Origin: Desulfatiglans anilini DSM 4660
Lineage (GTDB): Bacteria; Desulfobacterota; DSM-4660; Desulfatiglandales; Desulfatiglandaceae
Direction: 5' to 3'
DNA: 64,000 nucleotides
NCBI RefSeq assembly: GCF_000422285.1
Contig: NZ_AULM01000002.1
Span: 186,001 to 250,000 of the forward strand
Shown here piece after piece: positions 38,492 through 50,575 of the stretch (the stretch's first letter is position 1; the number at the start of each line of letters is the position of its first letter). Below the pieces are notes generated by a model. The model saw nothing but the letters and a program-made list of their open reading frames with translations. It made no database searches and was not told where the DNA came from. A program made the translations under genes and the position numbers.

Positions 38492-39148
38492 TCAGGGGGC
38501 TGCGGGCAGGCGGTAGCGGCCGGGGCTCGGTTCGCCCAGGTGGTTCCGCGGGCGCTGGTAGCGGCGCATGGCGTCGAGCCGGTCCAGCTCCTTCAAACGG
38601 TTGTAAATCATCGTCCAGGCGCAGTCCTTGTCGGCGTCGATCTCGCACTTCCCGTTGTTGGTCCCGCCGCAGGGGCCGTTCACCAGGCCTTTGTGGCAGG
38701 CGGTGACGGGGCAGATCCCCCCGGTCTCCCCGATGATGCAGGTGCCGCACTGGGTGCAGACCTCGTCGAACCGCCCGTCCGGACGCTCCTTTCCGATGAA
38801 CAGGGTGTTCTGGGCTGGGATCACCAGCCGCCTCAGCTGACTCGCGATGGTCTGGACACCGAAGGCGCAGGACATCACCAGCAGGGCATCGGCCTGGTCG
38901 ATCCGGCCTCCCTGCTCGCTCAGGATCTGCGGCGTCAGGTTGTCGCAGGCAACCGGCACCACGGTCGTCCCGGTCACCACCTTGCCCTTCTCCGAGAGCG
39001 TCTGCTGCATGGCTGCGACTTCGGGTGCGCCGCCGGTGCGGGTCAGCGTGGTGCAGGTCCCGCAGCCGATGATGAATATCCTGTCCAACCCCTCGAGCAG
39101 GCGCTCGAGCTCCTCGATGGGCTTTGGCTGGGTGATGGTCCGGATCAT
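38492..39148 (-). CDS. metV: MetV, zinc/Fe-S partner of methylenetetrahydrofolate reductase
   Basis: A 218-residue protein of the MTHFR C-terminal (MetV) family. Cys-rich signatures are GCGTCTTLTRTGG near the N-terminus and the block CTQCGTCIIGETGGICPVTA followed by NGPCGGTNNGKCEID and KDCAW. In acetogens MetV forms a heterodimer with MetF and is thought to accept electrons from partner subunits. The start overlaps the stop of the NuoF-GltD gene (ATGA). Members bind Fe-S clusters and zinc. Confidence 0.93.
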   Translation of the reverse strand: MIRTITQPKPIEELERLLEGLDRIFIIGCGTCTTLTRTGGAPEVAAMQQTLSEKGKVVTGTTVVPVACDNLTPQILSEQGGRIDQADALLVMSCAFGVQTIASQLRRLVIPAQNTLFIGKERPDGRFDEVCTQCGTCIIGETGGICPVTACHKGLVNGPCGGTNNGKCEIDADKDCAWTMIYNRLKELDRLDAMRRYQRPRNHLGEPSPGRYRLPAAP

Positions 39149-42100
39149 GCTCGACTCCTCTCTTTTTCAAGGTCGCACCTGAGGCAGCGCCGTGCTTCCA
39201 CGTGGGCCTGTTCGGCGCTGAATCCCCTTTCAACCTCCCGAAAGTCCTGGACCCGCTCTGAGGGGTCCTCCATCTCGACCAGTATGCGAGGCCGATCCTC
39301 CGTCGATTCTTCCTCGAGGGCGAGGCCCGTATCCTGCGCCAGGGGCGTTTTTTCATCCACCATTCGAATTCCGGAGCTGTCCCCCTGCAGATACTTGTCG
39401 ATGGCCAGGGCCGCGCGGCGGCCGGAGGCGATCGCCCGGATCACGAAGGTCGGACCGGTGGTGAAATCCCCGCCGGCGAAGACCCCGGGGATATTGGTGG
39501 CGAGGGTGTTTTCGTTCACGGCGAGGGTGCCCCATAAAGCGCGTTCGAGCTGGCTGTCCTCGGGCAGGAACGACATGTCGGGCGCCTGGCCGATGGCGAT
39601 GATGATGTGGTCGGCCTTGATGAACTGGGTGTCGTCCGCGTCGCACTCCGGGCTGAAGCGGCCGTTCTGGTCGAAGACGGAAAGGCAGTGCATGAACTGG
39701 ATGCCGCTGACGGCGCCGTTCGTATGTTCGATCTGAACCGGCGACCAGGCTGGGTTGATGACGATGCCCTCCTCGATCGTCTCCTCCACGTCCTTCTCCC
39801 AGGCCGGCATCTCGTCGCGCTTTTCGAGACAGAAGAGCTGGACGTCCTCCGCCCCGGCGCGCAGGGCCGTCCGGGCCACGTCCATGGCCACGTTGCCCCC
39901 GCCGATGACCACGGTCTTTCCGGACAGCCGGCCGCCCAGCCCCATCCGCACATCTCTGAGGAACGTGAGGCCGTAATGGAGCCCGGCCAGCCCCTCCTCC
40001 TCCCCGGGGATGCCGATCCGCTTGCTCGCCTGGGCGCCCGCGGCGATGAAGACGGCGCTGAAGCCCTCCTTGAGGAGGTCGTTGATGGTGTGGTTGGCAT
40101 CGATGGGATGATTGCACACGATCCGGACGCCCGCGTTGGAGATCGATTGGATCTCGAGGTCGATGACGGCGCGCGGGAGGCGGAACTCCGGGACGGCGAT
40201 CCCGAGCATGCCACCCGGCACCGGCTGGGCCTCGAAGACGGTCGCGGCATACCCCATTTTGGCCAGGAAATAGGCGCAGGTGAGGCCCGCCGGTCCGGCG
40301 CCCACCACCGCCACCTTCTGGGGGCGGGTCACGGGGAACGGCGCGTGGGCCGCCCCGAAGCGCTGGTAATACCAGTCGGCGGCAAAGCGCTTGAGGGCGC
40401 GGATCGCGACCGGTTCGTCAAGTTCGCCGCGCCGGCACTTGTATTCGCAGGGGTGGATGCAGACCCGCCCGCAGACGGCCGGGAAGGGGTTGCGCTCGCG
40501 GATGATGTCGACCGCCGCCCTGTAATCCTTTTGGGCGATCGCCGCCACGTAGTTGGGGACGTCGATGCCGGCCGGGCAGGCGTGCTGGCAGGCCGAGATC
40601 ACCATGGCGTCGCAGACCGCCCCCGCGCAGCGGTGCTCCTGGATGTGCTCCCGGTACTCGTCCTCGAAGTACATCAGGGTGGACAGGGCCGGTTTGGGGC
40701 TTGCCTGCCCGAGGCCGCACAGGGACGCCTCGGTCATCGTGCGTCCGATCGATTGGATGGCCGCGATGTCCTCGGCCCGCCCGCGCCCATCGGTGATGCG
40801 GCTCAGGGTCTCGAGGAGCTGGGTGGTCCCGAGGCGGCACGGGGCGCATTTGCCGCAGGATTCCGACTGGGTGAAGTTGAGGAAGAAGCGCGCGATTTCC
40901 ACCATGCAGTTGTTCTCGTCCAGGACCACCATTCCGCCCGAGCCCATGATGGCCCCGATCCGCTGGATGGTGTCGTAGTCGATGGGCAAATTCAGAAAGC
41001 GCGCCGGGACGCAGCCGCCGGCCGGCCCGCCCATCTGCACCGCCTTGAAGCTCCGTCCCTTCGGGATGCCGCCCCCGATGTCGAAGACGACCTCCTTGAT
41101 CGTCGTGCCGATTGGGACCTCCACGAGCCCGGTGTTGTTGACCTTGCCGGCCAGAGAGAAGATCTTGGTTCCGCGGCTGGCCTCCGTGCCCATCTCCGCG
41201 TACCAGGCTGCGCCGTGGGCGACGATGAGCGGGATGTTGGCCAGGGTCTCGACGTTGTTGATGTTGGTGGGCTTGCCGTCGACGCCGGCCTGTGCCGGGA
41301 AGGGCGGGCGGGGGCGCGGCATGCCGCGCCGGCCCTCGATGGAGGCCATGAGCGCGGTCTCTTCGCCGCATACAAAGGCCCCGGCGCCCTTCTTGAGCGA
41401 CAGGTGAAAATCGTAGCCGGTGCCGAGGATGTTTTCGCCGGCAAGCCCGAGTTCCAGGCACTGCTCGATGGCCAGGTTCAGGTGTTCGACGGCGATGGGG
41501 TACTCCTCGCGCACGTAGATGATGCCGTATTCGGCGCCCATGGCATATCCGCCGATCATCATCCCCTCGATCACGGCGTGGGGGTCGCCTTCGAGCAGCG
41601 CCCGGTCCATGAAGGCCCCGGGGTCCCCCTCATCCGCGTTGCAGACGAGGTATTTCGGGGTGGCTTGAGACTGGCGGGCCAAACGCCACTTGAGGCCGGT
41701 CGGGAACCCCGCTCCGCCGCGGCCCCGCAGCTTCGACTGGACGACCTCCTCGATCACCGATTCCGGGGTCATCTTCGTCAAGGCCTTGACGAGGGCCTTG
41801 TATCCGCCCGCGGCGATGTAGTGTTCGATCCGGGTGGGGTCGATCCGGCCGCAGTGGGCCAGGACCCGCCGCACCTGCTTCTGATAGAAGGGGATCTGGT
41901 TGCGGTGGTAGATGGGCTGTCCGCTCTTCGGGTCGCGGTAGGCCAACCGATCGATCAACCGGCCCTCTTTCAGGGTGCTCCGCACGATCTCCGGCGCGTC
42001 CTGCGGATCGACCTCCTGGTACTGGACACCCAGGGGCTCGATCGCCACGACCGGCGCCTTGGCGCAAAACCCGTGGCACCCGGTCGAGCGGACCTCGACC

Positions 42101-42276
42101 TGGCGGTCGAGCCCGGCCCGCGCGACTTCCTCCTGCAGGGCGTCCCGCACGGCGGCCGCCCCGTAAGCCCGGCAGCCGGTCATGCAGACATGGACCTCGG
42201 TCCGCCCGGCGCCGGCCTCGGCCAGGATCTTGTTCCGCAGCCATTCCAGTTGGCCGATGGATGCGAGCTTCTGCAT
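39145..42276 (-). CDS. NuoF-GltD fusion: FMN/NAD(H) dehydrogenase fused to a GltD-like flavoprotein
   Basis: A 1043-residue multidomain oxidoreductase. Residues 1-110: thioredoxin-like [2Fe-2S] domain (HVCMTGCRAYGA, RSTGCHGFCAKAPVV). Residues about 130-540: NuoF core with GRGGAGFPTGLKW (FMN), CNADEGDPGAFMDR, and the 4Fe-4S motif CGKCAPCRLG. Residues about 560-680: a Cys-rich linker (VCDAMVISACQHACPAGIDV, CGRVCIHPCEYKCRRGE) as in GltD. Residues about 690-980: a GltD/NfnB-like module with VAVVGAGPAGLTCAYFLA (FAD) and VVIGGGNVAMDVARTALRAG (NAD(P)H). It ends EARRCLRCDLEKE. Similar fusions belong to HylABC/HydABC-type bifurcating complexes. It follows NuoE by four bases and overlaps metV. Confidence 0.92.
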   Translation of the reverse strand: MQKLASIGQLEWLRNKILAEAGAGRTEVHVCMTGCRAYGAAAVRDALQEEVARAGLDRQVEVRSTGCHGFCAKAPVVAIEPLGVQYQEVDPQDAPEIVRSTLKEGRLIDRLAYRDPKSGQPIYHRNQIPFYQKQVRRVLAHCGRIDPTRIEHYIAAGGYKALVKALTKMTPESVIEEVVQSKLRGRGGAGFPTGLKWRLARQSQATPKYLVCNADEGDPGAFMDRALLEGDPHAVIEGMMIGGYAMGAEYGIIYVREEYPIAVEHLNLAIEQCLELGLAGENILGTGYDFHLSLKKGAGAFVCGEETALMASIEGRRGMPRPRPPFPAQAGVDGKPTNINNVETLANIPLIVAHGAAWYAEMGTEASRGTKIFSLAGKVNNTGLVEVPIGTTIKEVVFDIGGGIPKGRSFKAVQMGGPAGGCVPARFLNLPIDYDTIQRIGAIMGSGGMVVLDENNCMVEIARFFLNFTQSESCGKCAPCRLGTTQLLETLSRITDGRGRAEDIAAIQSIGRTMTEASLCGLGQASPKPALSTLMYFEDEYREHIQEHRCAGAVCDAMVISACQHACPAGIDVPNYVAAIAQKDYRAAVDIIRERNPFPAVCGRVCIHPCEYKCRRGELDEPVAIRALKRFAADWYYQRFGAAHAPFPVTRPQKVAVVGAGPAGLTCAYFLAKMGYAATVFEAQPVPGGMLGIAVPEFRLPRAVIDLEIQSISNAGVRIVCNHPIDANHTINDLLKEGFSAVFIAAGAQASKRIGIPGEEEGLAGLHYGLTFLRDVRMGLGGRLSGKTVVIGGGNVAMDVARTALRAGAEDVQLFCLEKRDEMPAWEKDVEETIEEGIVINPAWSPVQIEHTNGAVSGIQFMHCLSVFDQNGRFSPECDADDTQFIKADHIIIAIGQAPDMSFLPEDSQLERALWGTLAVNENTLATNIPGVFAGGDFTTGPTFVIRAIASGRRAALAIDKYLQGDSSGIRMVDEKTPLAQDTGLALEEESTEDRPRILVEMEDPSERVQDFREVERGFSAEQAHVEARRCLRCDLEKERSRA

Positions 42277-42280
42277 GGGC

Positions 42281-42769
42281 TTACGCCTCCTCTTTGTCTT
42301 TGCGATACTCGCTGAGCACGCTGGCCACCTTGGTCGGGTTGAGCCTGCCGAAGTAATCGCGGTTGACCATCATGGTCGGGGCCAGAAAGCAGGCCCCGAG
42401 GCAGGCGACGGTCTCGAGGGTGAACTGGTAGTCGGGGCTGGTTTCGCCCTCCTCGAGGTCGAGTTCCTTCTGGATCAGGCGGAGGATGCTCCGGCTGCCC
42501 TTCACGTGGCAGGCCGTTCCGCGGCAGACCTTCAGGACGCAGCGGCCTTTGGGCTTGAGGGAAAAGCCCGAGTAAAAGGTCACCACCCCCTGGACCTGCG
42601 CGGGGAAGAGCTGCAGGGCGTCGGCGATGGGCTCGATGGCCTCGGGCGGGACATAGCCGAAGGCCTCCTGGACCTCCTGGAGGAGCGGGATCAGGCCCCA
42701 GCTTTCCTCGCGGTGTTTGGCGATGATCCGGTCGAGTGTCTCGCTGTCGAAACGGGTCGTGTCTTCCAT
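42281..42769 (-). CDS. NuoE-like [2Fe-2S] subunit
   Basis: A 162-residue NuoE-type protein: an N-terminal helical bundle with LQEVQEAFGYVPPEAIEPIA and a thioredoxin-like [2Fe-2S] domain whose four Cys stand in CRGTACHVKGS and VACLGACFLAPTMMVN. NuoE passes electrons from the FMN of NuoF. It is directly upstream of the NuoF-GltD gene (four-base gap). The upstream gap to the large FdhA-like gene (314 bases) is long for a co-transcribed operon. Confidence 0.93.
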   Translation of the reverse strand: MEDTTRFDSETLDRIIAKHREESWGLIPLLQEVQEAFGYVPPEAIEPIADALQLFPAQVQGVVTFYSGFSLKPKGRCVLKVCRGTACHVKGSRSILRLIQKELDLEEGETSPDYQFTLETVACLGACFLAPTMMVNRDYFGRLNPTKVASVLSEYRKDKEEA

Positions 42770-43083: not shown

Positions 43084-45738
43084 CTAGGCCTTTTCGACCC
43101 GGACCGGACAGGTCCGCCATCCCCCCTCGGGGGATTTCAGACGTTCGAGGCCGATCAGCCGCATGACATCGTTCCCTGCAAATCCCTGGGGGATGATCAG
43201 CCGCCCCGGCGGCAGTTCCCGGTTGACGATGAAGCCGCGCTCGATACTTCCCGCCGCGGATGTCACGCGGACCCTGCCTGCCGCACCGAGCGCGAGGGCG
43301 GCCTGGTCTTGCGGGGAGAGTTCGACCTCCCCGTGTTTGCCCGAATCACGGATACGCTCCGAACGGCTGGTGCGGGTTCCGCTGCCGAGATGCCAGCGCT
43401 GGGCGCTGATCAGGGCTTCATAAGGAAAAGCCGTGTCCAGGGCTTTTGGTTGCCACGAAGCCGGAGGGGCGAGCGCGAAGCGCACGCTGTTCGACCCCTG
43501 ACTTTCCCGGGTCTCCACCGGTGCGACCCAGCCCCAGCGCCGCGAGCCGATCTCGGCATAGGCGGGTATGGCGGTCCGGATCTCCTGACGGATTTTTTCC
43601 AGCGTGGCGTAATGCTCCGGATAGCCGAGGCTGCGGGCGAGCTGCGCCAGAATGGTCCAGTCGGGCAGCGCCTCGCCAGGGGGCTCGACCCCCGGTTCGA
43701 AGGCCTGCACCCGTCCTTCCAGGTTGGTGAAGGATCCCCCCTTTTCGGCGAACGCCGCCCCCGGAAGCACCACGTGTGCAAGGCGCGCGGTGCGCGTCAT
43801 CAGAATGTCCTGGACGACGAGAAACTCCAGCCGTCCGAGCGCCGCACCGACCCGCTCGGGGTCCGGCATCGAGCGGAGAGGGTTTTCCCCCATGATGTAA
43901 AGGGCCTTCAAGCGGCCCGCAAGCGCGGCCTCCACGATTTCCCCCGGATCGAGCCCGGTTCCGGCGGGCAGTTCACTCCCCCAGAGGGTTTCGAACCTCT
44001 GCCGCGCGGCGGTGTCCTCAAGCCGGCACCGGCCTGGCAGCAGGTCCGGCACCGCCCCCATATCGAAGGCCCCCGTCAGGTTGTTCTCGAGGCCGAGGAC
44101 GAAGATCCCTGCATTTCGCGGGCCAATGCTGCCGGTGAGGAGCGCGAGGTTCATGACCGTGTCGAGGACGGCGGGGCCTTGGTCGCGCTCCAGCAGATCG
44201 TGGCCGATCACGAAGGCGAGCTTGCGGTCGCGGAGCAGCAGGACGGCCTTTTCCATCTCATCCTGGAAGGCCGGATCTTCTGCCGCGGCCTTTTCAGGGG
44301 CAAGCGCACGGAAGCGGGCTGCCCAGTCCTCCCAGCCCGCCGTGCGCGCCTCGATGAAGGTCCGGTCCAAGGCCCGGGTGTTGTCGAGTTCCGCCGTGAG
44401 GGCGTTCAGCACCGTCAAAGACGGCTGCCCTCCCCGGCCCAGCCAGGCGCTGGCGATCTCGCAGCAGCCGGTGCGGACCGGGTCAACCACCACCAGAGGG
44501 GCGCCCCGGCGCGCCGCCCGCCGGATGTGGTAAGCCGCCACCGGCACGGTGTGGTCGGGGTCCGCCTCGACGATCACGATCGCGTCGGCTTGCTCGAGGC
44601 CGGCGAGGGGGCGCAGGCGGCCGGCGCCCTGCAGCCGGTCTTCGACCGCGCGGAGCAGCGCGTACCCGCTCAGGCTGCCGCCGCTCGTCACATGGGGGGA
44701 GCGGAAGCAGACTCGGGCGATCTTCTGCAGGAGGTAGTTCTCCTCGTTGCTGCATTTGCTCGAACCCAGGAAGGCGATGCTTTCGGGGCCGTGCCGGCGC
44801 TTCAGTTCAGCCAGCCGCCCGCCGACCAGGGAGAGGGCTTCGTCCCAGGCGGCCTGCTGGAGGCTGTCCTCTCCGCCTTCCCCTTTGCGGCGGATTAAAG
44901 GATGGAGCAGACGGTCGGACGCGGAGAGGAAGTCGTGCGCGAAATGCCCCCGGACGCACAAGGTGACGCCGTTGACCGTGTCCGGTTCGCGCGAAGGATG
45001 GACCTCGACGACGCGCCCGTCCGAGACCCCGAGGGCCAGGCTGCACCCGGCGCTGCAAAACCCGCAGACGGTGTTGCGCTCGTGCTCGGGGGTGCCGACG
45101 AAGGCGCCGCTGCGGGTGGACAGCGCCCCGGTGGGGCACAGGGAGACGCAGGTGCCGCAGAAGGTGCAGCGGGAGGATTCGAGCGGACGTTCGTGGAGGG
45201 TCGCGGGGCGAGAGGCGAAGCCGCGCCCGTAGTAGTCGATGGCCCCCGCCGCGACGAGCTCGTGGTCGGCACGAATGCACTTGCCGCAGAGGATGCACTT
45301 GGAGAGGTCCCGGACGATGAAGGGGTTGAGCGTTTCGAAGGGCTTGTAATTGGGCATGGGATAGAGCCCGGATTCCCCCACGCCGAGTTCGGCAGCCAAC
45401 CGGCGCAGTTCACAGCGGTTCCCCTTGCTGCAGACGATGCACGATTCGGGGTGTTCAGCCATCATCAGGCGCACGATGTTCCGCCGGTGCTCCATGACGC
45501 GCGGCGAGTGAGTGAGAACGGCCATGTCCTGCGCGGCCGGTGTCACGCAGGCGGCCATCAGCCGGCCGGTCTTCTCGTCCTCCACCAGACACATGCGACA
45601 GGCGCCATAAGGGGCGAGATCGCGGTGGTGGCACAGGGTGGGGATCGAAAAGCCGTTCTTCTCGGCGATGCTCAGAACGGACGCACCGGGCGGGCCGGAT
45701 ACCCTCTTGCCGTTGATGGACAGGACGATGGACTGCAC
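43084..45738 (-). CDS. NuoG/formate dehydrogenase-like molybdopterin-fold protein lacking the active-site Cys/Sec
   Basis: An 884-residue protein laid out like FdhA/NuoG. It has a [2Fe-2S] ferredoxin domain (TLCHHRDLAPYGACRMCLVE), a His-Cys cluster (HPESCIVCSKGNRCE), two 4Fe-4S motifs (CILCGKCI, CTFCGTCVSLCPTGA), then a molybdopterin-family domain with CGFCSAGCSLALGV and LCVRGHFAHDF. Where formate dehydrogenases have R-L-(Cys/Sec)-H, the sequence after ENYLLQKIARVCF reads SPHVTSGGSLSGYALL, with no Cys, Sec codon or His. It is thus unlikely to oxidise formate and may be an electron-wiring subunit like NuoG (inference). Start is GTG at 45738, after AAAGGAG; the open frame extends further upstream. 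It lies upstream of nuoE. Confidence 0.85.
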   Translation of the reverse strand: MQSIVLSINGKRVSGPPGASVLSIAEKNGFSIPTLCHHRDLAPYGACRMCLVEDEKTGRLMAACVTPAAQDMAVLTHSPRVMEHRRNIVRLMMAEHPESCIVCSKGNRCELRRLAAELGVGESGLYPMPNYKPFETLNPFIVRDLSKCILCGKCIRADHELVAAGAIDYYGRGFASRPATLHERPLESSRCTFCGTCVSLCPTGALSTRSGAFVGTPEHERNTVCGFCSAGCSLALGVSDGRVVEVHPSREPDTVNGVTLCVRGHFAHDFLSASDRLLHPLIRRKGEGGEDSLQQAAWDEALSLVGGRLAELKRRHGPESIAFLGSSKCSNEENYLLQKIARVCFRSPHVTSGGSLSGYALLRAVEDRLQGAGRLRPLAGLEQADAIVIVEADPDHTVPVAAYHIRRAARRGAPLVVVDPVRTGCCEIASAWLGRGGQPSLTVLNALTAELDNTRALDRTFIEARTAGWEDWAARFRALAPEKAAAEDPAFQDEMEKAVLLLRDRKLAFVIGHDLLERDQGPAVLDTVMNLALLTGSIGPRNAGIFVLGLENNLTGAFDMGAVPDLLPGRCRLEDTAARQRFETLWGSELPAGTGLDPGEIVEAALAGRLKALYIMGENPLRSMPDPERVGAALGRLEFLVVQDILMTRTARLAHVVLPGAAFAEKGGSFTNLEGRVQAFEPGVEPPGEALPDWTILAQLARSLGYPEHYATLEKIRQEIRTAIPAYAEIGSRRWGWVAPVETRESQGSNSVRFALAPPASWQPKALDTAFPYEALISAQRWHLGSGTRTSRSERIRDSGKHGEVELSPQDQAALALGAAGRVRVTSAAGSIERGFIVNRELPPGRLIIPQGFAGNDVMRLIGLERLKSPEGGWRTCPVRVEKA

Positions 45739-46083: not shown

Positions 46084-46962
46084 CTAGCGCAGCTTGGCGG
46101 CGTCCAGATACTGCCGCAGCTTCGACTCCCCGCCGATGGTGATGATGTGGACGCCGTCGCAGATCTCTCTGAGTCCTTTAATCGTGTCGGCGAACAACTC
46201 CAGACTCGCCTTTTCGATGTCCGCGGCCTGGGCGAGTTTCCGGATCACCCATTCGGGCACAAGCCCGCTCCTGAGGTGGCGGTTCAGAAAACGGGCTACG
46301 CCGGCTGTCCGCAGGATGAGGACCTCGGCGATGACCGGCACACCGAATGTGTTGGTGCGGGAGAGGAATTTCTGAAAGCGGTCCAGATCGAAGACCGGGG
46401 TGGTCAGGAAGTAGCCGGCGCCGACCCGGACCATTTCCTCCATTTCCCGGAGTTCGAGGTCCGGGACGTTCCGCCCCCAGACCGATTCGACACCCGACCC
46501 CAGAAGGAACTCCGCCTTGTCCGGGATCTCCCGTCCGTCGACCGTGTGTCCTTCACGGATGTGATCGAGGACGGACTTCAGCTTGCCGGCGTCCACGTGG
46601 AAGAACATCATCTCCTGCAGGCTGTCTCCCGTGATCCGATAGTCCTCCGTGAAGACGAGAAGGTTTTCCACGCCCGCCTGGTGGGCGGCGATCAGGTCTT
46701 TCTGGAGTTGGATCCGGTTCTTCTCCCGGGTGGTGGTCTGATAGATCGATTCGAAGCGGTTCTGTTTGAGCAGTTCGCAGGTTTTGATCGTGTCGCCCAC
46801 CACGCCCTCGAGTTCGGTCTCGGACAGGGTGATCCCGTCGACGCGCCCGCGGATCCGCTCGAGGTTCTGGATGATCAGCCCGCCGGATTCCTGGTCGAGC
46901 GGTGTCTGGATCTCGGTCGTGACGACGAATCGCTTTTTTTGCAGGGCCTCCTTGAGTTTCAT
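46084..46962 (-). CDS. Divergent MetF paralogue
   Basis: A 292-residue protein of the MetF TIM-barrel family, distinct from the metF at 37314. The Glu is kept in VVTTEIQTP and the Asp in EDYRITGD, but the Gln position reads FLTTPVFDL (Thr instead of Gln), and several loops differ. The change could alter substrate or specificity. It precedes the FdhA-like gene by 345 bases, in which I see no gene. It follows the response regulator gene (47037) by 74 bases. Its stop is at 46084. The end, ICDGVHIITIGGESKLRQYL, is MetF-like. Confidence 0.85.
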   Translation of the reverse strand: MKLKEALQKKRFVVTTEIQTPLDQESGGLIIQNLERIRGRVDGITLSETELEGVVGDTIKTCELLKQNRFESIYQTTTREKNRIQLQKDLIAAHQAGVENLLVFTEDYRITGDSLQEMMFFHVDAGKLKSVLDHIREGHTVDGREIPDKAEFLLGSGVESVWGRNVPDLELREMEEMVRVGAGYFLTTPVFDLDRFQKFLSRTNTFGVPVIAEVLILRTAGVARFLNRHLRSGLVPEWVIRKLAQAADIEKASLELFADTIKGLREICDGVHIITIGGESKLRQYLDAAKLR

Positions 46963-47036: not shown

Positions 47037-47612
47037 TTACGCCCTGTCCTCCAGTTGACGGCGCACCTCTTCTTTGAGGCGGGGCAGGGGCAGCGGCTTG
47101 GAAAAACAGGCGTCTGCGCCGTTCTCCTTCATGCGCTCGAACTTCTCGTCATCCAGATAGGCGGAAAGAACGATGATCCGGGTATCGCGCGTCTCGGGAG
47201 ACGACTTGATCTTCTTGCAGACCTCGTAGCCTTTGATGTCCGGCATCATGATGTCCAGGATGAGGAGATCGGGCTGGAAGTGCGCGACCTGCAACCCGGC
47301 TTCGAACCCGTCGGAGGCCGAGATGACGTCGTAATCATGTTCGTCCTCCTCCAGGGCCTGAACGATGCTTTCCACGATGATCGGATCGTCATCGACCACC
47401 AGGATCCGGCGGCGGGTGGCGGCCGGCGCCTCCGCCGGGATCGGGATCCCCTTTTCCCGCATGAACTGTTCCAGGTCGGTGCGCTTGATGCGCCGGTGCC
47501 CCCCGGCGGTTTCATGGGCCTTGATGCGCCCTGCTTCGATCCACTCGATGATGGTTCTGGAAGGGACATTGCAGTACTGGCCGGCGGCGAAAACGGTGAA
47601 GACGTCGTCCAT
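47037..47612 (-). CDS. Excisionase/MerR-type HTH fused to response-regulator receiver (copy 1)
   Basis: A 191-residue protein with an unusual domain order. Residues 1-55 are a MerR/excisionase-type helix-turn-helix (YCNVPSRTIIEWIEAGRIKA, AGGHRRIKRTDLEQFM). After a short linker, residues 68-190 form a receiver: VDDDPIIVE, phospho-acceptor Asp in LLILDIMMPDIKG, VLSAYL and the Lys in FSKPLPLP. It is very similar to 49997-50575, and shares its AT-rich promoter layout. It lies directly upstream of the second MetF gene and downstream of the kinase, so it may control the redox operon (inference). Confidence 0.9.
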   Translation of the reverse strand: MDDVFTVFAAGQYCNVPSRTIIEWIEAGRIKAHETAGGHRRIKRTDLEQFMREKGIPIPAEAPAATRRRILVVDDDPIIVESIVQALEEDEHDYDVISASDGFEAGLQVAHFQPDLLILDIMMPDIKGYEVCKKIKSSPETRDTRIIVLSAYLDDEKFERMKENGADACFSKPLPLPRLKEEVRRQLEDRA

Positions 47613-47923: not shown

Positions 47924-47993
47924 CCCTGAACATCTCACACCAGTGGGGTGCCCGCTATTTTGACACCCAGCCGATTCTTCGAGATGTTCAGGG
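47924..47993. repeat. 13-bp inverted repeat at the 3' end of the histidine kinase gene
   Basis: CCCTGAACATCTC (47924-47936) and GAGATGTTCAGGG (47981-47993) are exact reverse complements 44 bases apart; the right arm covers the kinase stop codon. A GGGTG/CACCC pair lies inside. It could form an RNA hairpin or be a protein-binding site. There is no T-run typical of intrinsic terminators. Confidence 0.5.
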
Positions 47994-49844
47994 CTGCGCC
48001 TTGATCTGCGCGGGCATTCCTCCGTTTTCAGCCTTGTGGGCCGGAAGCGCGATGGTGAAGGTCGTCCCCTGATTGGGCTTCGACTGGACGGTGATGTCGC
48101 CTCCGTGGTCCTGGATGAACGCGTAGCAGACCGACAACCCCAGCCCGACCCCCTTGACGCTGTCCTTGGTGGTGAAAAAGTTCTCGAAGACGCGGTGAAC
48201 GTTTTCCTCCGCAATGCCTTGCCCGGTGTCCGCGATTTCGATCAGGGCCTGCTCGCCTTTCCGACGGGTCCGGAAGGTCAGTGTGCCGCCGCCCGGCATG
48301 GCGTCCCGGGCGTTCGAGATCATGTTGAGGATGACCTGGCGCATCTGATTTTTCGAGACGCTCACCTCCCCGAGGTCCCCGGCCAGTTCGCGGACGATCC
48401 AGATGTTGTTTTCCTGGAGGATCCTTTCGTGGAGCAGGAGGAGTTCTTCGATGATCTGGTTGAGGTTGGCCGGGCACCGCTCTTCCTGATCCGGCTTGGA
48501 AAACGAAAGCATCTTCTTGAGCATGTCGGCGAGCCTGACCGTTTCGGAAAGGGACATCTCCAGAAGCCTGCGCCGCTTGTTTTCGGGCGGTATCTCGGTT
48601 TTCAGCAGTTCGAGGGTGTTCATGATGCCATAGAGCGGATTGTTCAGCTCGTGGGCGATCTGGGAAGTCAGCTTGCCCATGGCGGCGAGCTTCTCGGATT
48701 GCAGCAGCTGTTCCTGGATGTTGTGCAGGGCCCTTTCCATGCCGATCCGCTCCGTCATGTCGACGAAGGAGCCCACGGTCGCAACCTCGCGCCCTTCGTC
48801 GTCGTAAATCATGGCCGCCGAAAGGGTCCCGTCGATGACCTGGCCGTCCCTCCGCACATAGAGCATGGCGTGATTCTGCAGCAAACCTTTTCCTCCGTGC
48901 TCGGAACTGCGGATCATCTTCATGATCTTGCGGGCCACGCCTTCCGGGTAGATGCGGGAGATGTGCATTTTGCCGACCGTTTCATCCGCCAGGTACCCCA
49001 GGGTTTTTTCAGCCGCCCGGTTCCAGAGGATGATCCTGCCTGTGAGATCGGCTGCCATGATCGGGTTGGGCGAACTCTGGATGATTTTGTTCAGGAAATC
49101 GTGGGCCTCCTTCAACTTGCGCTCCATCCGGTAGCGCTCTGTCTGGTCGACGTTGATGCCCTCATAGCCGATGACGTTGCCGAGATGGTCGTGCCGCAGG
49201 TGGCCGGTGACCCACACCACAATGGGGTCGCCGTCCTTCCGCTTGAACTCGACCTCGTAATCCTTGACAAATCCTTCCCGCTCGATCAGCTGCTGGAACC
49301 GGATCCTGTCCTCCGGTCTGACGTACAGGTCCCTGGAGATGTCGATGTCCAGGAACTCTTCCTTGGTGTCGTAGCCTAGCATCTGCAGCAGGGCCCTGTT
49401 CGCGTCCAAAAACTTCCCTTCTTTGCTGCTGATGTAGACACCGACGTTGACGTGTTCGAAAAGGCTGCGGAATTTTTCTTCGGACAGCCGGAGCTCGGCC
49501 TCTCTGCGCTTACGGTCGGTGATGTCCTTGAAAAACCGGATCCGGGACTGGCTGCCGTCGAGGTAGGCCACGGGTTTTTCCGTGACCTCGAAGGTCCGGT
49601 TCACCTTGGGAATATAAATTTCGCCGCGCCGCTCTTTCGACAGGGGTGTTTCGTGGGCCCAGCACCACGGACACAAGGTGTCCTGATCGTTGATCACTTT
49701 GTGGCACTTCTCCCCGACCCCTTGCCCGAAATATTCGATCATGGTCCGATTCATATACTCCACGGTGAAGTCGGGGTCGATGACGTAAACGCCTTCGTCG
49801 ATCGACTCCACGATGGAGGCCAGCATGCGCTTTTCCTTGTCCAT
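47988..49844 (-). CDS. Three-PAS histidine kinase
   Basis: A 618-residue soluble histidine kinase with no membrane segment. PAS 1 (about 1-112) has Cys47 and a CPWC pair (Cys58, Cys61) in DTLCPWCWAHE. PAS 2 (about 120-240) and PAS 3 (about 250-370) follow. The dimerisation domain has the phospho-acceptor His398 in SQIAHELNNPLYG, followed by the HATPase with NMISNARDAMPGGG, IADTGQGI and GVGLGLSVCYAFI. It sits between two HTH-receiver genes, its likely phosphorylation partners. The Cys cluster suggests redox or metal sensing (inference). Confidence 0.92.
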   Translation of the reverse strand: MDKEKRMLASIVESIDEGVYVIDPDFTVEYMNRTMIEYFGQGVGEKCHKVINDQDTLCPWCWAHETPLSKERRGEIYIPKVNRTFEVTEKPVAYLDGSQSRIRFFKDITDRKRREAELRLSEEKFRSLFEHVNVGVYISSKEGKFLDANRALLQMLGYDTKEEFLDIDISRDLYVRPEDRIRFQQLIEREGFVKDYEVEFKRKDGDPIVVWVTGHLRHDHLGNVIGYEGINVDQTERYRMERKLKEAHDFLNKIIQSSPNPIMAADLTGRIILWNRAAEKTLGYLADETVGKMHISRIYPEGVARKIMKMIRSSEHGGKGLLQNHAMLYVRRDGQVIDGTLSAAMIYDDEGREVATVGSFVDMTERIGMERALHNIQEQLLQSEKLAAMGKLTSQIAHELNNPLYGIMNTLELLKTEIPPENKRRRLLEMSLSETVRLADMLKKMLSFSKPDQEERCPANLNQIIEELLLLHERILQENNIWIVRELAGDLGEVSVSKNQMRQVILNMISNARDAMPGGGTLTFRTRRKGEQALIEIADTGQGIAEENVHRVFENFFTTKDSVKGVGLGLSVCYAFIQDHGGDITVQSKPNQGTTFTIALPAHKAENGGMPAQIKAQP

Positions 49845-49996: not shown

Positions 49997-50575
49997 TTAC
50001 CGGTCGAGCCCTAGCTGGCGGGCCACTTCCTCCAGAAGCTGCGGCAGGGGCAAGGGCTTGTTGAAACAGACATCGGCCCCCTCCGCCGTCATGCGGTTGA
50101 ATTTCTCTTCATCCAGATAGGCCGAAAGAACGATGATCTTGACATGCTGGGTCTCGGGAGAGGCCTTGATCCTGCGGCAGACCTCGTAGCCTTTGATGTC
50201 CGGCATCATGATGTCGAGGATCAGAAGGTCCGGCTTGAAGTGGGTGACCTGCAGCCCCGCCTCGAACCCATCCGCGGCGGAGATGACCTCGTAATCGTGG
50301 GCATCTTCTTCGAGGGCCTGTACGATGCTCTCGACGATGATGGGATCGTCGTCCACCACCAGGATTCTTTTCTTCCGGCCTTCATCCGCGTTAGCCTGAG
50401 GAATCGGGATCCCCTGCCGAAGCATGAATGCTTCCAGATCCTCGCGGCTGATCCGGCGGTGTCCCCCGACGGTGCGATAGGCCTTGATGTGGCCCGCGTC
50501 GATCCAGTTAATGATCGTCTTGGAAGAAACGTTGCAGTATTGGCTGGCGGTATAAACGGTAAAAACATCACGCAT
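49997..50575 (-). CDS. Excisionase/MerR-type HTH fused to response-regulator receiver (copy 2)
   Basis: A 192-residue paralogue of the protein at 47037-47612, with the same layout: HTH (YCNVSSKTIINWIDAGHIKA, VGGHRRISREDLEAFM) then receiver with VDDDPIIVE, LLILDIMMPDIKG, VLSAYL and NKPLPLP. It is upstream of the histidine kinase on the same strand. Most differences lie in the HTH and linker, so the two copies probably bind different or partly overlapping sites. The duplicated promoter region argues for gene duplication including upstream sequence. Confidence 0.9.
   Translation of the reverse strand: MRDVFTVYTASQYCNVSSKTIINWIDAGHIKAYRTVGGHRRISREDLEAFMLRQGIPIPQANADEGRKKRILVVDDDPIIVESIVQALEEDAHDYEVISAADGFEAGLQVTHFKPDLLILDIMMPDIKGYEVCRRIKASPETQHVKIIVLSAYLDEEKFNRMTAEGADVCFNKPLPLPQLLEEVARQLGLDR

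Follow-up and report, generated by a model that had tools for sequence, protein, structure and literature searches.

An FdhA-like protein without the formate active site is encoded in one operon with MetVF in Desulfatiglans anilini and Desulfobacterales

What is the role of a formate dehydrogenase-like protein when its formate site appears to be missing and its gene lies beside those of a methylene-tetrahydrofolate (THF) reductase? This question is raised by a gene in the window, the whole stretch of 64,000 nucleotides of Desulfatiglans anilini DSM 4660 analysed here (NZ_AULM01000002.1, positions 186,001 to 250,000). The gene (43084..45738, reverse strand) encodes an FdhA-like protein of 884 aa. 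Its start is a GTG codon at 45738 with AAGGAG 8 nt upstream, which supports the coordinates first assigned to it. A longer open reading frame, starting with ATG and reaching to 45840, is less likely. No Rfam element was found in the region.

The protein carries the cluster motifs for [2Fe-2S], a His-Cys3 [4Fe-4S], a dicluster of two [4Fe-4S], and the Mo-domain [4Fe-4S]. Pfam searches identified 2Fe-2S, NuoG-type His-Cys3, dicluster ferredoxin, Mo-domain Fe4S4, molybdopterin, and dinucleotide-binding domains. The best relatives with solved structures are the alpha subunits of NAD-linked formate dehydrogenases. The AlphaFold model based on 62 sequences (pLDDT 85.6, pTM 0.88), which superseded a model from 16 sequences with pLDDT 64, matches such an alpha subunit over its full length (TM 0.87). 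Both the full-length fold and the cluster motifs are shared with Rhodobacter FdsA (6TG9). In the translation, CGFCSAGC is followed by ...KIARVCFRSPHVTSGGSLSGYALL.

The active site is different. In active enzymes, the loop has the pattern TNNxDxCARxC/U-H. It is replaced here by the remodelled loop SPHVTSGGSLSGYALL (44653..44700, reverse strand). Sites are numbered after R. capsulatus FdsA by alignment; we take C386 to be the Mo ligand, H387 and R587 to be catalytic, and K295 to be the electron-relay lysine. Ser357 (44668-44670) and Gly358 (44665-44667) align with C386 and H387, a placement that is somewhat ambiguous because phmmer opens a four-residue gap there. The DNA at the site reads tcc ccc cat gtg acg agc ggc ggc agc ctg agc ggg tac and contains no in-frame TGA.

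The loss is common to the whole clade. Residues were counted in the window protein and 80 orthologues, mainly from Desulfobacterales (81 sequences), with 16 Sec/Cys paralogues as the active comparison. The Mo-ligand Cys/Sec is absent from all 81 and is replaced by Ser (40), Asn (10), and then Phe, Tyr, Thr, or Ala. H387 is likewise absent from 81/81 (Gly in 74), as is R587 (Ala in 48, Thr in 12, Ser in 8); in 80 of the 81, Arg takes the place of K295. The active paralogues retain C/U386, H387, R587, and K295 in 16/16. This pattern argues against chance or an assembly error. No replacement Cys was seen at the active site when Cys columns were counted across the 81 sequences. Apart from the cluster motifs, the pterin domain has a single Cys that is conserved throughout, Cys329, which FdsA also has (C358), away from the site. 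Three orthologues flagged for an in-frame TGA codon (L011-L013) were considered as selenocysteine candidates and rejected; the TGA is at match residue 1, upstream of the gene and not at the active site.

Family models agree with this picture. TIGR01591 (formate dehydrogenase alpha) is the top match, at 412 bits, 254 bits short of its equivalog cut-off of 666; an active paralogue scores 893. The original prediction had described an FdhA with its Fe-S motifs and CGFCSAGC intact, no Cys/Sec-His pair, and no in-frame TGA; the translation bears out the description, the counts extend it to the clade, and the 81 sequences have no other conserved Cys at the site. Its view that formate oxidation was lost is strongly supported by the disappearance of all four catalytic residues across the clade, by the TIGR01591 score, and by the presence of true Sec/Cys formate dehydrogenase paralogues in the same genomes. 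Thus, these sequences strongly support a catalytically dead formate dehydrogenase alpha subunit. The prediction that automatic annotation would call it a formate dehydrogenase also agrees with the top match, from which the models would name it formate dehydrogenase-like.

Loss of catalysis is not accompanied by decay. The ligand Cys residues of the [2Fe-2S], His-Cys3, and Mo-domain clusters are kept in at least 80 of the 81 sequences, and most pterin-domain motifs are kept. One dicluster [4Fe-4S] ligand, residue 158, is Asp instead of Cys in 78/81 and also in a deep clade described below, and is Cys in Desulfoluna. Several new residues are fixed: K295R (80/81), H387G (74/81), R713G (81/81), and Q589E (72/81). 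Between two sister species, dN/dS of the gene is 0.20, 2.6 to 6 times higher than that of its neighbours (0.03-0.08). The gene is under purifying selection, constrained but relaxed relative to its neighbours. Pseudogene decay is ruled out by this ratio and the fixed new residues, which indicate remodelling. The strict conservation of the Mo-domain cluster Cys residues and Asp158 mildly favours a working role of this cluster, as an entry point for MetV, over a structural remnant such as that in StnC.

The operon suggests partners for the protein. The order on the same strand is a receiver/DNA-binding regulator, metF2, the fdhA-like gene, nuoE, nuoF::gltD, metV, and metF. NuoE (42281..42769, 162 aa) is a [2Fe-2S] subunit like HydC and StnA. 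The next gene (39145..42276) encodes an in-frame fusion of 1043 aa, with a HydB-type FMN/NADH module (aa 1-560) and a GltD/NfnB-type FAD/NADP(H) module. As far as residue 560, the NuoF half most resembles the HydB proteins of bifurcating hydrogenases, and it retains the N-terminal [2Fe-2S] Cys residues (31/35/67/71) and the zinc motif. The GltD module, with two [4Fe-4S] motifs of its own and FAD and nucleotide folds, stands in place of the C-terminal ferredoxin domain. MetV (PF12225; 38492..39148) has 12 invariant Cys residues, and its gene shares 4 bp with the end of nuoF::gltD. MetF (PF02219; 37314..38249) adjoins it and has the invariant catalytic Glu35 and Asp124 of the MTHFR motif, so that the pair qualifies as MetVF. 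MetF2 (46084..46962) is a second MTHFR-family protein, 29% identical to MetF, and its Glu and Asp motifs are kept in the window family. The regulator, with an excisionase-type DNA-binding domain and a receiver domain (47037..47612), probably controls the operon. A PAS sensor histidine kinase (47988..49844), which often adjoins the operon, is flanked on its other side by a similar excisionase/receiver regulator (49997-50575). All of these genes up to the kinase are on the reverse strand.

The linkage was examined in 80 named loci, with a gene scored only where the contig reaches it. The downstream genes are invariant: nuoE was found in 68/68 testable loci, nuoF in 59/59, gltD in 54/54, metV in 43/43, and metF in 38/38. 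The upstream genes are frequent but not universal (metF2 in 56/68, where a few of the misses are overlaps, and the regulator in 52/62). Carriers include Desulfoluna, Desulfonema magnum, Desulfosudis, and Desulfatibacillum. A deep clade from another family of the phylum, ~40% identical and scoring 551 bits with TIGR01591, has the FdhA-like gene, nuoE, and nuoF::gltD in the same arrangement. It too is missing the active-site pair, and metV-metF follow nuoF::gltD in both loci with long enough contigs. The FdhA-like proteins and the deep clade are monophyletic (support 1.0), and the neighbouring branches are active NAD-linked formate dehydrogenase paralogues. This placement suggests that the formate site was lost, and the protein recruited, only once. 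NuoF::GltD fusions are observed elsewhere (L139 6330-9446 and L147 12808-15816), and the partners of such fusions are MetVF, active Cys-FdhA, and Sec-FdhA. The fusion seems to have arisen more than once. Since formate-using versions with an active FdhA exist in the same order, the MetVF-linked module looks like a reuse.

It is probable that the dead alpha subunit is a wired scaffold in a complex of the FdhA-like protein, NuoE, NuoF::GltD, MetV, and MetF, which serves MetVF. A physical complex is suggested by the gene linkage; its electron path, the direction of electron flow, and any bifurcation are inferred. The ancestor would have been the alpha subunit of a cytoplasmic NAD-linked formate dehydrogenase, whose formate site was lost as the NuoE/NuoF module turned to MetVF. 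In the five-subunit complex, the protein would resemble BfuA or StnC. The NuoF half would be the site for FMN and NAD(H), and its GltD counterpart the site for FAD and NADP(H) (or a ferredoxin). Both halves may be connected to MetV and MetF through the clusters of the FdhA-like protein. The module would probably be used in the oxidative direction of the Wood-Ljungdahl pathway, passing electrons of methyl-THF to NAD+, driven by a stronger reductant that donates alongside it, either reduced ferredoxin or NADPH. The reverse direction, for CO2 fixation, is an alternative.

A co-donor is energetically feasible. The methylene/methyl-THF couple is near -200 mV (PMC9430772), and the in vivo potentials of NADH and ferredoxin are about -280 mV and about -500 mV (PMC9304861). 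Computed from these values, methyl-THF alone would not reduce NAD+ under these conditions (-200 vs -280 mV), and methyl-THF together with reduced ferredoxin could reduce it downhill by ~70 mV per electron, a value that concerns feasibility only. All characterised bifurcating BfuB proteins carry a C-terminal ferredoxin domain (PMC9304861). The cluster set of bifurcating BfuB (HydB) runs from B2 to B5 and takes in the 2x[4Fe-4S] of this domain; the fusion does not have the full set. Bifurcation by the module is uncertain, as clusters B3/B4 of that domain are lacking.

The closest known system is StnABC (Nfn-Bfu) of Sporomusa ovata (8OH5; PMC10482914, PMC7483475). It also consists of NuoE, a HydB-type NuoF, GltD, and an inactive FdhF-like domain, and its genes are beside metVF. 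It is annotated as a formate dehydrogenase, and formate activity was tested and found absent. The inactive FdhF domain is in StnC (PMC10482914), to which the Stn GltD is fused, and the Stn NuoF retains its ferredoxin domain. In the module described here, NuoF carries GltD where that domain would be, and the FdhA-like protein is separate. The Stn-like paralogues of this order have lost the whole loop and keep Lys295, in contrast to the Lys295-to-Arg change in the FdhA-like protein. Another FDH-like protein without the active-site loop lies beside GltD and a formate dehydrogenase gene set (L147 7222-9402, L148 3653-5833, L149 5650-7869). Its arrangement is near that of Stn, and it is apparently a second, independent inactivation. 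In StnABC, the dead FdhF-like domain keeps the complex together, and electrons move between GltD, where NADPH reacts, and NuoF, where NADH reacts (PMC10482914). The same logic may apply here, with MetVF as a third partner.

The similarity to StnABC also allows another reading, in which the FdhA-like protein, NuoE, and NuoF::GltD are a free-standing NADH/ferredoxin:NADP+ transhydrogenase of the Stn/Nfn type that shares an operon with MetVF through the Wood-Ljungdahl pathway. The parts are the same, the GltD module suggests NADP(H), and the S. ovata stn genes are downstream of metVF and their product was purified as a separate enzyme (PMC7483475). On the other hand, metV-metF adjoin in every testable locus, including the deep clade where contigs suffice, metV overlaps the fusion gene translationally in the window, and GltD on NuoF is not the Stn architecture. 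MetVF is also seen to recruit redox partners in Hdr-type operons of the same genome. A free-standing transhydrogenase is considered rather unlikely.

The original prediction had proposed an electron conduit, "as NuoG", perhaps for MetFV, and suggested looking for homologues beside metF. The adjoining metF in 38/38 testable loci fits a link to MetVF, and a conduit would be consistent with the invariant operon. The comparison with NuoG of complex I is apt in that both are FDH-related subunits that have lost catalysis, NuoG carrying electrons from FMN. However, the protein is closer to FDH alpha, scores 323 bits with TIGR01973 (NuoG; equivalog cut-off 470), and is in an operon without complex I membrane genes. 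The inactive FdhF-like domain of StnC is the nearest functional analogue. Since the Mo-domain clusters of StnC lead no further and are required for its assembly, the predicted conduit is better read as a conduit and scaffold.

A different question is whether the pterin site serves another substrate. Mo or W sites without a protein ligand are present in arsenite oxidase and aldehyde:ferredoxin oxidoreductase. Many pterin-domain residues are kept, and the residues fixed round the old site (K295R, H387G, R713G, and Q589E) give it a remodelled look. Nevertheless, the formate dehydrogenase catalytic residues are all gone, no conserved chemistry is visible at the ligand position, which varies (S, N, F, Y, T, A), and dN/dS exceeds that of the neighbours several-fold; an enzyme for another substrate is improbable. 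Finally, the protein might still oxidise formate by means of another ligand, or its site might be recoded or mis-assembled. The top match to TIGR01591 might speak for this reading, which is very hard to reconcile with the agreement of independent genomes, the lack of an in-frame TGA, a Cys329 that lies away from the site, and a score of 412 against 666 bits.

Returning to the proposed scaffold serving MetVF, the module can be compared with the four methylene-THF reductase classes of acetogens: MetF, MetVF, MetVF-RnfC2, and MetVF-Hdr (PMC9430772). In MetVF-HdrABC-MvhD (Moorella, Sporomusa; PMC9430772) and MetVF-RnfC2, the operon likewise joins the MetVF core to a redox module for NADH and perhaps another carrier as well. 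Here the module is NuoE-NuoF::GltD with the FdhA-like protein, instead of Hdr or RnfC2. The chances are about even that MetVF on this module, with a dead formate dehydrogenase as the adapter, is a fifth type. The D. anilini genome has dsrAB and CODH/ACS and is that of a sulfate reducer. It has two Sec-FdhA genes on the same contig as the FdhA-like gene and three further metV-metF pairs (L189, L190, L191), so the MetVF of this operon is not the sole methylene-THF reductase. One of these pairs follows an HdrA-like protein of 910 aa, and one follows an HdrA/Fer4_20 protein of 1392 aa. Several wirings of MetVF are therefore found within one cell. A MetF2-like protein precedes both the NuoF-type (46084-46962) and the Hdr-type (L189 1583-2467) MetVF operons of this genome.

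Inactive FDH-like subunits are already known in StnC, NuoG, and the Dehalococcoides CISM protein DET0187 (described in PMC5736913); the MetVF-linked arrangement appears to be new. DET0187 is FDH-like, was shown to lack formate activity, and is reused for electron transfer, but it is hypothesised to couple a hydrogenase to reductive dehalogenase and has no link to a folate enzyme. No published account of the metVF-nuoEF-gltD-fdhA cluster was found in the literature searched, which leaves most subscription journals outside, and priority is not firm. MetF is absent from the text of the Bfu family review. In Seep-SRB1g, fdhF2 is beside nfnB (PMC10553843); this gene may or may not correspond to the FdhA-like gene.

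Among the major oxidisers of carbon in marine sediments are completely oxidising sulfate reducers of Desulfobacterales. The operon bears on the question of how electrons are taken from methyl-THF when these bacteria run the Wood-Ljungdahl pathway in reverse, and the reconstruction for D. autotrophicum includes an unnamed carrier X of reducing equivalents (PMC2702500). If the proposed role is true, the module would provide the electron carrier that is left unnamed for the methyl-THF step in Desulfobacterales, and methyl-THF (-200 mV) would reduce NAD(P)+ to NAD(P)H in sulfate reducers by confurcation with a low-potential donor. Because the order-wide operon links MetVF with a module for NAD(P)H, the question is testable in cultured strains such as Desulfoluna and Desulfonema magnum. 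Among the genes called formate dehydrogenase in genomes of Desulfobacterales, and in metagenome studies of syntrophic partners, is a large clade whose products are very probably unable to oxidise formate.
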